Source: an uncultured Acetobacteraceae bacterium
GTDB taxonomy: Bacteria > Pseudomonadota > Alphaproteobacteria > Acetobacterales > Acetobacteraceae
DNA: 64,000 nt
Assembly: GCA_903918195.1 (NCBI GenBank)
Contig: CAIXDS010000147.1
Span: 1 to 64,000, forward strand
Direction: 5' to 3'
In this document: positions 25,979-28,458 of the stretch, in pieces
Position numbering within the stretch: position 1 is the first letter of the stretch
Layout of the letters: the number at the start of each line of letters is the position of its first letter
The notes under the pieces: model-generated
The model's input: the letters and a program-made list of their open reading frames with translations, nothing else
Told to the model about the DNA's origin: nothing
The model's database searches: none
Translations under genes and position numbers: made by a program

Positions 25979-26138
25979 ATGGGGTCCAGGGGCCTCTCGG
26001 CCCTTGGCGGGGTCGAGGGGCAGAGCCCCTCGCCTTGCTTGCTTTGGTGGGGGCGACAAATCCTATCGGGGCTTTGCCCCGAACCCCACCTGGGCTCCGC
26101 CCTGGACCCGCCAGGGGCCAACGGCCCCTGGACCCCAT
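25979..26138. repeat. GC-rich paired-hairpin repeat, copies 6a and 6b
   Basis: Two units in tandem. 25979-26036 has GGGGTCCAGGGGCC and CGAGGGGC-AGA-GCCCCTCG. 26064-26138 has CGGGGC-TTT-GCCCCG, GGGCTCC-GCCC and CCAGGGGCC-AAC-GGCCCCTGGACCCC. It occupies most of the gap between the convergent alanine dehydrogenase and FGE-fold genes. The remaining ~100 bp (26139-26240) shows nothing further. Confidence 0.8.
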
Positions 26139-26240
26139 GCAGACAGCAAGGCGCCGCCTCGCCGCTGCTCCGGGCTGGGTCGTCGCCGCCTGCTCGCTCC
26201 GCTCGCCTGGGCTTGCTCCTCCCCGCCCTTCGCTTCGCGC

Positions 26241-27389
26241 TCACTGAACTCGGGCGCAGCGAAAGCCCAGGTAGACATTGCGGTTCGACGGGACGTAGTG
26301 GTCGCGGAACGCTGCCCGCACGAGGCGCGCGTCGTCGAGCCAAGACCCGCCGCGCACGACGCGGAGCGCTGCACCCCCGTCCGCATCAACCCAGGCCGAT
26401 CCGTCCGTCGGTGCACCGTCGTAGTTGTCATGCCAATTATCGGCACACCACTCCCACACATTCCCCAACATGTCATGCAGACCAAACGCGTTGGGAACCT
26501 TCAAACCGACCGGCCGTGTCCCCGCCCGCGTGTGGTCGTACTGCTTCTCGGGCCAACCACTCGAATCGGCGCCGTCCTCCAGTTCGAACCCCACCCCGCT
26601 GTTGCCGCCATACCAGGCAATCCGATCCAGCACGGGCGCATTGCACTCGCCCACGATGCGCATGTCACCCGCATAGGTCGCCGTGGTCGTGCCCGCCCGG
26701 CAGGCATATTCCCACTGCGCTTCCGACGGCAGCCCCAGGCCCAGACCCGGAGCAAGCGCATTCAGCTTTTCCGTGAATGCACGCACATCCTCGAAGGTCA
26801 CCTGCTCGACCGGCCGCGTGGGGCTCTTGAACCGGCTCGGATTGCTCCCCATCACCGCTTCCCACAGCGCCTGCGTGCAGGGCGTGTCGAACAGCCAAAA
26901 CCCCGCCGCCAGAGTCGCCTCATGCTGCGGACCTTCGGGGTTCCAGCGCCCCTCCTCGTCCTTCGGCGAGCCCATCAGGAACCGCCCAGGCGGAATCCAG
27001 CGCAGACGCTGCGTCACCCGGCTTCCGCCGGCAGCCGGCAGGCTGAAGCTGGCCCACGGCCCGTACTTGTCCCTGCCCCAATCATCAGCCCATCCGTCGC
27101 GTACGGCCTCGAACCCAGGGGGCCAGACTGTCGTTTCGTCATAAATGGCGCCCGCAAACATCGCCGAGTTGAGCCCCCGTGCCTGCGACAGATTCGCACC
27201 ACTGAGATCGGCATCGCAGAAATAGAATCCTCCAAGATCATCAGTTCCGAAATCAACGTTGCGGAGATTCGCACCGCGAAAATGGCGCGCCGCGTCCAGC
27301 CCTCCCAACCGCGCAAGCGTCGCGAAATCCGCATCATGCGCGGCAAGGATAGCCTGGGCTCGGCGCAGCGTGTCCGGTGACAGGTTCAT
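26241..27389 (-). CDS. Pentapeptide-repeat plus FGE-sulfatase (C-type-lectin fold) domain protein
   Basis: 382 residues. After an N-terminal helix-rich stretch come pentapeptide repeats (about 37-85: FRGANLRNVDF, CDADLSGANLSQARGL). Then comes an FGE/SUMF1 domain (about 128-380) with RFLMGSP, RPVEQVTFEDVRAF, LPSEAQWEYACRAGT, GLHDMLGNVWEWC and LRVVRGGSW..GFRCARV. The two catalytic cysteines that should follow GGSW in true formylglycine-generating enzymes are absent (LDDARLVRAAF instead), so it is probably a binding rather than an oxidase module. Its ATG overlaps the stop of the upstream gene by four bases. The C-terminal segment resembles retroelement-diversified variable regions. Confidence 0.85.
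   Translation of the reverse strand: MNLSPDTLRRAQAILAAHDADFATLARLGGLDAARHFRGANLRNVDFGTDDLGGFYFCDADLSGANLSQARGLNSAMFAGAIYDETTVWPPGFEAVRDGWADDWGRDKYGPWASFSLPAAGGSRVTQRLRWIPPGRFLMGSPKDEEGRWNPEGPQHEATLAAGFWLFDTPCTQALWEAVMGSNPSRFKSPTRPVEQVTFEDVRAFTEKLNALAPGLGLGLPSEAQWEYACRAGTTTATYAGDMRIVGECNAPVLDRIAWYGGNSGVGFELEDGADSSGWPEKQYDHTRAGTRPVGLKVPNAFGLHDMLGNVWEWCADNWHDNYDGAPTDGSAWVDADGGAALRVVRGGSWLDDARLVRAAFRDHYVPSNRNVYLGFRCARVQ
26262..26352 (-). other. Candidate variable region (DGR-like) at the 3' end of the FGE-fold gene
   Basis: The segment from RGGSW to GFRCA falls exactly where diversity-generating retroelements edit FGE/C-type-lectin proteins. Exposed positions are encoded largely by NNC codons (CTC, GAC, GAC, TTC, GAC, CAC, TAC, GTC, TAC), as expected from an AAC-rich template with adenine mutagenesis. 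High genomic GC gives the same bias by default, and no template repeat or reverse transcriptase is in this window. Tentative. Confidence 0.3.
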
Positions 27390-28243
27390 AGCAATTTCCC
27401 GCGATGCAGGCCGCCGCGCGCGAGATCAATGTGTTCGGAATCGGGATCGTCACAATCCATCCGCTGCAACACGCGGCGAAAGATCGCGAACTGCTTTGCG
27501 GTCACGTCCGGTGGCGGATCATGGATTTCGACGTCGAGGTCGATATCTCTGCACCGAAGCGTCAACGTAACGCCGTGCGGCCCCTCGCCGAGCAATCGCA
27601 TGTCGCAAAGCTTCGCGCCGCTCAGTGGGCTATCGTTCTGTCCTTTCGGGTTTGCGATCCGCCATGCGATGCCGTGGCTCACGTTAGGGTACTCGTTTCC
27701 CGGATTGCCCAGGACGGTACTGGGTACCGGCTGGACATTTTCCTCCTGCGGCAGAATTTCGACAACCTTGGCCCGGACCGTAACCGCCAGACGCGGCAAA
27801 TCCGGACCCGACTCGATTTTCAGGTAGATCGAATCGAGGCGTAACGAGACGACCAGTGCGAAACGATCCGGTTCACCACCCGGGGCCTGTGGTTCGACGT
27901 TCAGACGCGCAAAGTCCTGACGCAAGAACCAGGGTGGGTCGGGCTGCCACGACGGCGGCGAGGTCGATGAGGACGGAAGCTCCGGAGGAGCAGGCGACCG
28001 GGATCGCCTCCGCACGATCTCTCCGTCCTCCCATGCCGCGTCCATTTCGGCCCGCAACGGCCCTGTCTGCGGGTCGTTCGGCTCTGTGTTCGGCAGCCCG
28101 AAGAATACCTTCAGAATGGCGTCCTTCCGCCCCTTCTGTGGCCATTGCTCGCCCTTGCGCCAGGATTCCATTGTGTCGGCGTCCGGGCTGGAAGCTCCCG
28201 CCTTCGCCATCGCATCGGCGAAAGTGCGGTCCGTCCACCCCAT
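27386..28243 (-). CDS. Uncharacterised protein with N-terminal HTH-like domain, coupled to the FGE-fold gene
   Basis: 285 residues from ATG 28243, which has AGGTGA five or six bases upstream. The frame is open to 28435, and ATGs at 28312 or 28366 are possible. The N-terminal MGWTDRTFADAMAKAG..DTMESWRKGEQWPQ resembles a lambda-repressor/XRE-like HTH that picks out a short helix and a Trp-Arg-Lys recognition segment. A Pro/Ser linker (about 78-100) follows, then a beta-rich C-terminal domain of unknown type (RFALVVSLRLDSIYLKIESG, LRCRDIDLDVEIHDPPP). Its TGA overlaps the FGE-fold ATG (ATGA), so the two are translated together and probably act together. Confidence 0.7.
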   Translation of the reverse strand: MGWTDRTFADAMAKAGASSPDADTMESWRKGEQWPQKGRKDAILKVFFGLPNTEPNDPQTGPLRAEMDAAWEDGEIVRRRSRSPAPPELPSSSTSPPSWQPDPPWFLRQDFARLNVEPQAPGGEPDRFALVVSLRLDSIYLKIESGPDLPRLAVTVRAKVVEILPQEENVQPVPSTVLGNPGNEYPNVSHGIAWRIANPKGQNDSPLSGAKLCDMRLLGEGPHGVTLTLRCRDIDLDVEIHDPPPDVTAKQFAIFRRVLQRMDCDDPDSEHIDLARGGLHRGKLL

Positions 28244-28458
28244 ATCTCTCACCTTTGCCCGGGAATCGTGGCGCTCGAGGCCGGTCCCAAGGGTCCAGTG
28301 GTTGCGGAACATGTCGAAGAATCGCCGGCATGCCGCCAACGAATTCGGTGGGGAATTCGCCGCCATGCTAGCAAGAATCCCTGCAATTCCGTTCGATCTC
28401 CGCCGTTTGCCAGCATCCTTTGTGTGTCGGCGCAATCCCGCGCCAGGAGGATGCCGAC

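Follow-up and report, generated by a model that had tools for sequence, protein, structure and literature searches.

A C-type-lectin-fold protein of an uncultured Acetobacteraceae bacterium as a probable target of a lost or unassembled diversity-generating retroelement

The gene at positions 26241–27389 (minus strand) of the window, a stretch of 64,000 nucleotides from an uncultured Acetobacteraceae bacterium (contig CAIXDS010000147.1, hereinafter C147, of assembly GCA_903918195.1, G000; 6.09 Mb, 410 contigs, 94% complete), is an open reading frame (ORF) for a protein of 382 amino acids. This protein is very probably the target, or variable protein, of a diversity-generating retroelement (DGR) of the formylglycine-generating enzyme (FGE)/C-type-lectin type, the retroelement itself being lost or unassembled. 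It contains a pentapeptide-repeat stretch (residues 51–70; 27180–27239, minus strand) and an FGE/C-type-lectin domain. A Pfam search identifies the domain as PF03781, FGE-sulfatase (residues 131–380, E-value 3.9e-47), and gives a weak match of the stretch to PF00805, Pentapeptide (E-value 1.3e-4, 21.9 bits against a cut-off of 20.2, with the single stretches each below the cut-off). The C-terminus of the protein reads RGGSWLDDARLVRAAFRDHYVPSNRNVYLGFRCARVQ. FGEs possess an active-site cysteine pair after GGS, and the solved FGE 6muj has two cysteines between GGSW and GFRC, which we take to be this pair; the window protein has no cysteine between these motifs and reads GGSWLDDARLVRAAF there. An earlier note, made from the letters alone, had described an FGE-fold protein lacking the cysteine pair, and this description is borne out.

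An AlphaFold model of the domain, built from an alignment of 100 sequences of the window and the loci discussed below, has a mean predicted local distance difference test (pLDDT) score of 97.2. In VIA-align comparisons with this model, Treponema denticola TvpA (2y3c; Z 32.5 over 229 residues, root-mean-square deviation 1.7) and PvdO (5hha; Z 32.3) are tied, followed at lower scores by FGEs (Z at most 27.2), TaqVP (14.8) and Mtd (12.7). Among the solved relatives, PvdO ranks first both by sequence and in Foldseek, with TvpA second and third, respectively. The Pfam match, the model and the likeness to TvpA, TaqVP and Mtd identify the C-type-lectin-fold scaffold of a DGR variable protein. TvpA is 26–34% identical to the window protein and, unlike it, has a known retroelement. 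Pfam family and fold are also common to PvdO and the SUMF1-FGE enzymes, from which the window protein differs by the missing cysteine pair and by a DGR-type variable region at its end. Most likely, the domain functions in binding and is not an FGE.

The variable region (VR; 26245–26375, minus strand), located near the 3' end of the gene, consists of 131 bases that align without gaps to the template repeat (TR) of L117, a contig carrying a DGR cassette; this is the nearest template to the window VR and belongs to a relative, not to the window itself. Against this template, 14 of the 21 mismatches fall on template adenines, that is, 14/27 adenines and 7/104 other bases are changed (Fisher p 4.3e-7). 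Twelve templates were compared with the window, 11 from the 18 repeat-pair loci described below and one from the genome G033; ten of the others show the same adenine direction (p 2.4e-4 to 0.028), and the L048 template gives no match. For the paralogues encoded on contigs C214 and C58 of the same genome, the signature is likewise strong (17/28 adenines against 8/104 other bases, and 17/27 against 11/104, respectively), and C339, the third paralogue, has 18/28 adenines and 28/106 other bases changed. Upstream of the VR, the bias is little seen in the window domain: the comparison with L117b gives 27/120 changed adenines and 125/576 other changed bases, and that with L117a2 gives 37/131 and 117/571. 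The changed codons relative to the L117 template are AAC to CTC (3), AAC to GAC (2), AAC to TAC (2), GAC to GTC (2), TAC to TTC and ATT to GTG. The earlier note had attributed the CTC, GAC, TTC, CAC, TAC and GTC codons to an AAC template; all are present, and CTC, GAC and TAC do replace AAC, but CAC and one GAC are template codons left unchanged.

The VR closes with TTTCGCTGCGCCCGAGTTCAG (26244–26264, minus strand), a target-type end resembling an initiation of mutagenic homing (IMH) site. The end GAGTTCAG is found in 22 of 26 VRs, that of the window included (the exceptions are C339, L041, L047 and one of the VRs of L054), in a survey of 21 sources with a GFRCAR-type pattern, which excludes other kinds of end and has no match in L038, L044, L046, L056, L063 and L064. 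Six of the seven listed templates end in GAGCTCAC, the G033 remnant being the deviating one. Thus, the window carries the IMH-type end GAGTTCAG, distinct from the template end GAGCTCAC. In its own genome, the target-type end is present at C147, C214 and C58. In a search allowing up to 3 mismatches, the DGR records G100, G101, G102 and G105 each contain a single exact copy of the template-type end, and no exact copy is found in G000–G006 or G033; 3-mismatch matches occur in G000 (C75, C231 and C233), G001, G002 and G005.

The VR is followed by a 3' tail (26137–26243, minus strand) common to the paralogues C58 (87%) and C214 (85%), with the motif GCGGAGC at 26196–26202. Within the 150 bases examined, this motif follows 20 of the 26 VR ends, which are related and not independent sequences, and none of the 7 template ends (6 recognised by GAGCTCAC, these being the templates of the repeat-pair screen, and that of G033 by position); base-shuffled tails contain it in 1.5 of 26 on average and in 6 at most over 500 trials. 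A simple search places the motif in the loop of the best-ranked hairpin in 9/26 cases, the window not among them, and the fold energy of four tails is no better than that of shuffles (z −0.6 to 0.9). The portion of Guo et al. 2011 consulted describes a DGR hairpin/cruciform after the VR with a GRNA loop, from which the GCGGAGC loop motif differs. GCGGAGC is seen downstream of VRs in L040, L042, L043, L045, L047, L049 and L117. A hairpin near 26111–26131 with a DGR-like look was set aside as part of a genome-wide repeat with at least 84 matches (40 of 387 candidates scored); the intergenic repeat family with hairpins to which it belongs occupies 25990–26137, past the tail.

Homologues of the window protein, with 51–75% identity, are encoded in DGR cassettes. 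FGE-alignment scans yielded 79 genome loci (among the best 80 stretches) and 49 viral-contig loci, and in a self-comparison of 140 loci (L026–L165), 18 hold repeat pairs of at least 100 bases in which adenines of one copy account for 75–95% of the mismatch positions (L040, L042, L043, L044, L046–L049, L063, L064, L082, L084, L087, L095, L099, L115, L117 and L118). Since L117 and L118 look like near-copies, the 18 loci are not all independent. Left out as short or simple-repeat were the pairs of L050, L103, L105, L110 and L139 and a 67-base pair of L115, and the L100 pairs were omitted too (one of 103 bases, with 6/7 mismatches at T); this screen detected no repeat pair in L038 or L039 (67% identical). 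Reverse transcriptase (RT) ORFs with the motifs IG[A/N/S/T/C]LTSQ and RYMDD or RYVDD occur at 14 loci, all within the 18. The 4.6-kb L117 contig has the order FGE, HRDC-domain gene, RT, template, FGE; its FGE domain is 74–75% identical to that of the window and its 3' tail is similar, and it differs from the window in having the HRDC-domain gene, RT and TR in the cassette. L117 and L118 are IMG/VR contigs filed as viral, each with a DGR cassette and tandem FGE domains. An FGE domain 59% identical to that of the window also appears in the phage records MW202622 and MW202658 (named Bacteriophage sp.).

Three FGE paralogues are encoded on other contigs of the window genome: a 653-aa protein on C214, with an N-terminus read as helix-turn-helix (HTH)-like; a 531-aa protein on C58, adjoined by a TIR-domain gene; and a TIR and FGE fusion on C339. 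Two of the three, C214 and C58, share the strong adenine signature. The C339 fusion gene (L028:4616-6187) has a degraded target-type end and is perhaps an old silent target. A 180-base probe from the 3' end, for which 40 of 48 candidate matches in the genome were scored, finds C214 (84%) and C58 (77%) besides itself; the other VR matches are short, with E-values of 0.006 or higher, and were not accepted as template copies. The VR region differs from its C214 counterpart at 13.2% of bases and from the C58 counterpart at 24.0%, compared with 32.2% and 34.0%, respectively, in the rest of the domain, and the C214–C58 pair behaves in the opposite way (24.0% in the VR region against 15.6% upstream). 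Judged from these sequences, the VR appears homogenised yet hypervariable.

The earlier note placed no RT in the window, and none was found there; RVT_1 matches in the genome lie only on contigs C324 and C355. The Pfam RVT_1 model does detect the L117 RT (44.7 bits, cut-off 29.6). A dedicated RT profile, A2, built from the RTs of eight cassettes, was run against 100 genomes, scoring up to 20 candidates per genome; it returned no match in G000 or in the genomes of the same genus, and a fuller search gave 2e-8 on C324 as the best match in G000. Five of six DGR-bearing records have E-values below 1e-160 by construction, as their sequences are in the profile; its reach is better indicated by further RT matches from outside the profile in G102, on other contigs (4e-153, 3e-95 and 1e-64). 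In the 100-genome run, matches of 1e-28 to 1e-3 occur in 13 genomes, G033 among them.

The individual RT candidates were rejected as DGR RTs. The C324 RT gene (L030:2476-9424), group II-like by motif, is interrupted: about 4.7 kb holding recombinase-type genes separates its two pieces. It is told apart from DGR RTs by its A2 match of 2e-8, which concerns the first piece only, by its GGVISPLLAN..YADD motif and by the lack of the TSQ motif. The second piece matches the group II model best (82.5 bits), but this score does not discriminate, since genuine DGR RTs, those of L117 and L040, also match that model best (102.2 and 82.4 bits). The C355 RT (L003:799-2139) is Drt2 (NF041746, 402.8 bits, cut-off 390), and the RT on C300 of G033 (L037:751-2181) is Drt2-like (353.2 bits, below the same cut-off). 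The presence of Drt2-like antiviral RTs in both genomes with FGE variable domains, G000 and G033, is probably a coincidence.

A search of 100 genomes, its own included, that scored up to 8 candidates in each finds the segment only in G000 and in G033, which represents another genus of the same family; 0 of the 6 same-genus genomes searched match it. The G033 locus comprises a MoxR-like gene (30.4 bits with the bpMoxR model, cut-off 27), a gene whose 1231-aa product contains two FGE domains, a further FGE gene and, between the FGE genes, a 122-base template-like stretch (L035:9655-9776), which was first noticed by eye and then tested, the repeat-pair screen giving no pair for it. Over its 3' 85 bases, the stretch shows changes at 14/19 adenines and 7/66 other bases relative to the first VR (p 2e-7); the corresponding figures are 11/19 and 7/66 for the second VR and 11/19 and 18/66 for the third. 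The first 37 bases no longer resemble the VR. There is no RT beside the stretch, and the two RTs of G033 are a group II-like one (253.6 bits, cut-off 300) and the Drt2-like one. The stretch looks like a half-deleted template, and misassembly across repeats could produce the same appearance.

Templates that match targets on other contigs are found in two related genomes. In Rhodoblastus sphagnicola DSM 16996 (G100), the template is on contig C105 and two matching VRs are on C45, each differing from it at 1/99 non-adenine sites, with 11/27 and 20/27 adenines changed. In Candidatus Methylumidiphilus alinenensis (G102, the genome of L040), the comparison covered six VRs located on contigs other than that of the template: four show a single difference among 101–102 non-adenine sites, one shows 3 among 102 and one 16 among 103. 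The several RT matches in this genome suggest that it may contain other templates with other ends. Among the targets in G102 are DUF4062-NACHT-FGE, nSTAND1-FGE and tandem-FGE proteins. The consulted part of Dore et al. 2024 (PMC10907252) reports Thiohalocapsa targets matching a template elsewhere, so the G100 and G102 matches extend a known behaviour, and remote action by this kind of DGR appears possible. Within the limited collection of literature searched, nothing was found on orphan or in-trans DGR targets or on Rhodoblastus DGRs.

Taken with the homologues in DGR cassettes, the adenine-biased VR and the target-type 3' end support the proposal of the earlier note that the window gene encodes a DGR variable protein whose retroelement is remote or lost. 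We infer that, in the past, mutagenised cDNA from an AAC-rich TR replaced 26245–26375; this replacement would have randomised the template adenines and homogenised the other positions, with the GAGTTCAG end and the 3' tail as the expected landing site. The RT and the template would then have been lost, leaving frozen VRs, or would lie in the unassembled few per cent of the genome.

Several observations weigh against this interpretation. Neither an own TR nor a DGR-type RT was found in the 94% complete assembly, the genome check that the earlier note had called for; both a remote and a lost retroelement are compatible with this outcome, and the claim is therefore one of a former or unplaced target, not of a member of a working DGR. 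The own VRs do not appear freshly copied from one template because they differ from each other at 4–16 of 101 non-adenine sites (C147–C214 4, C147–C58 15, C214–C58 16; 28–31 with C339), compared with 0–1/101 among the three VRs of L117. The upstream controls for C214 and C58 show a milder bias (39–52 of 100–111 adenines changed, or 39–47%, against 33–36% of other bases). Because these controls and C339, with its broken end, also show the bias, a part of it is due to adenine placement, the template AAC codons marking exposed positions; greater weight therefore falls on how little the VR diverges at its non-adenine sites. Among the own copies, VR and upstream sequence contrast weakly in the codon positions that differ (Fisher p 0.04, 0.18 and 0.06). 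As G033 alone among the other 99 genomes searched has the segment, activity is not visible by strain comparison. Finally, the partner protein encoded next to the gene is without informative relatives.

With respect to the fate of the retroelement, its loss from the lineage, with the VRs fixed and either kept or decaying like other sequence, has about an even chance of being correct. The non-adenine drift between the own VRs, the degraded end of C339 and the half-deleted template of G033 with no neighbouring RT point in this direction; the incompleteness of the assembly, the open frames of all four FGE genes of G000 and the potential misassembly in G033 point away from it. A complete DGR on an unassembled stretch or plasmid that still rewrites the locus is a serious but lesser possibility. 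The assembly consists of many contigs and is incomplete, and the L049 genome, in which 201 bases separate the template from a contig end and the best RT match (1e-28) is not at the DGR level, shows that assemblies can hide a DGR cassette; furthermore, the target-type end and the tail are kept in the window, and remote targets are seen in G100 and G102 as well as in Thiohalocapsa. On the other side stand the differences between the own VRs, which exceed those of L117, the failure to find the exact template-type end in G000, and the lack of RT matches in the same-genus genomes, with up to 20 candidates scored per genome. Because no RT or template was found, loss is somewhat likelier than continuing activity.

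An origin without any retroelement, in which FGE-domain paralogues acquired the pattern by gene conversion and ordinary diversifying selection, is improbable. C147 and C214 have changed codons in common (GCGCTCCGC and CACTACGTCCCGTCG), which suggests conversion between these two as a possible contributor, and C339 shows that part of the adenine bias can arise without recent copying. Against this explanation, the third base is retained in 10 of the 11 changed adenine-bearing codons relative to the L117 template (hand count from the alignment), whereas upstream third codon positions differ at 81/232 between the window and L117b; moreover, C58 is biased too, and the window end is that of DGR targets. 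A catalytic SUMF1-type enzyme (FGE, PvdO or EgtB-like) is very improbable despite the PF03781 membership and the PvdO-like sequence and fold, given the absent cysteine pair, scores far below the NCBIfam cut-offs (122.8 bits against 500 for the PvdO model NF051459) and the several homologues that are DGR targets.

If the window gene is indeed a DGR target, a broader and rather speculative proposal, which we advance with low confidence, is that the variable domain, the target-type end and the GCGGAGC tail form a portable landing site carried by diverse proteins (HTH-like, TIR, NACHT, nSTAND1 and long tandem-FGE) at scattered loci, so that one template and RT would diversify a sensor repertoire remotely; the window genome would then retain a fixed receptor set after loss of the machinery. 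Surveys that require an RT beside the target miss such genes, as Roux et al. 2021 (PMC8144416) admit of their own method in the portion of that article consulted. Orphan or remote DGR targets become countable if they are recognisable from end, tail and adenine pattern alone. Distant action is open to testing in the relatives whose template matches NACHT-, nSTAND1- and tandem-FGE proteins located on separate contigs, the named strain Rhodoblastus sphagnicola DSM 16996 being one example.

The partner gene (27386–28435, minus strand; at most 349 amino acids, start uncertain) overlaps the start of the FGE gene with its stop by 4 bases. Its product has no family match and no relatives in the 100 genomes beyond one marginal match (9.8e-4); residues 53–113 weakly resemble the N-terminus of the C214 fusion (22/66 identical, E-value 0.002 for one comparison). 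PADLOC gave no match for the FGE proteins scanned. As for the effector or NTPase partner of a Ternary/STAND conflict system, the window partner matches no family, TIR is present at C58 and C339, and G033 has a bpMoxR-type gene. Comparison with the conflict-linked cellular DGRs described by Dore et al. 2024 (PMC10907252) and Kaur et al. 2020 (PMC7159879) shows the same C-terminal FGE-type domain with an adenine-patterned VR, TIR in the paralogues, NACHT, nSTAND1 and MoxR-like parts in the relatives, and remote targets; the window system differs in that neither RT nor template was found in its assembly and in that the variable domain is encoded by a gene of its own, which adds a weak pentapeptide stretch and has a partner lacking a family match. 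By analogy with the paralogues, the relatives and these published systems, the FGE protein, together with its overlapping partner, perhaps serves a conflict (defence) module as its variable sensor, a role that the TIR- and HTH-like-linked paralogues may have too. The lower G+C content of the gene pair (65.1% and 61.7%, compared with 69.5% for the window) would fit acquisition. An alignment beside ald extends to window position 26102 in one of the seven genomes compared (L214), which is compatible with insertion.
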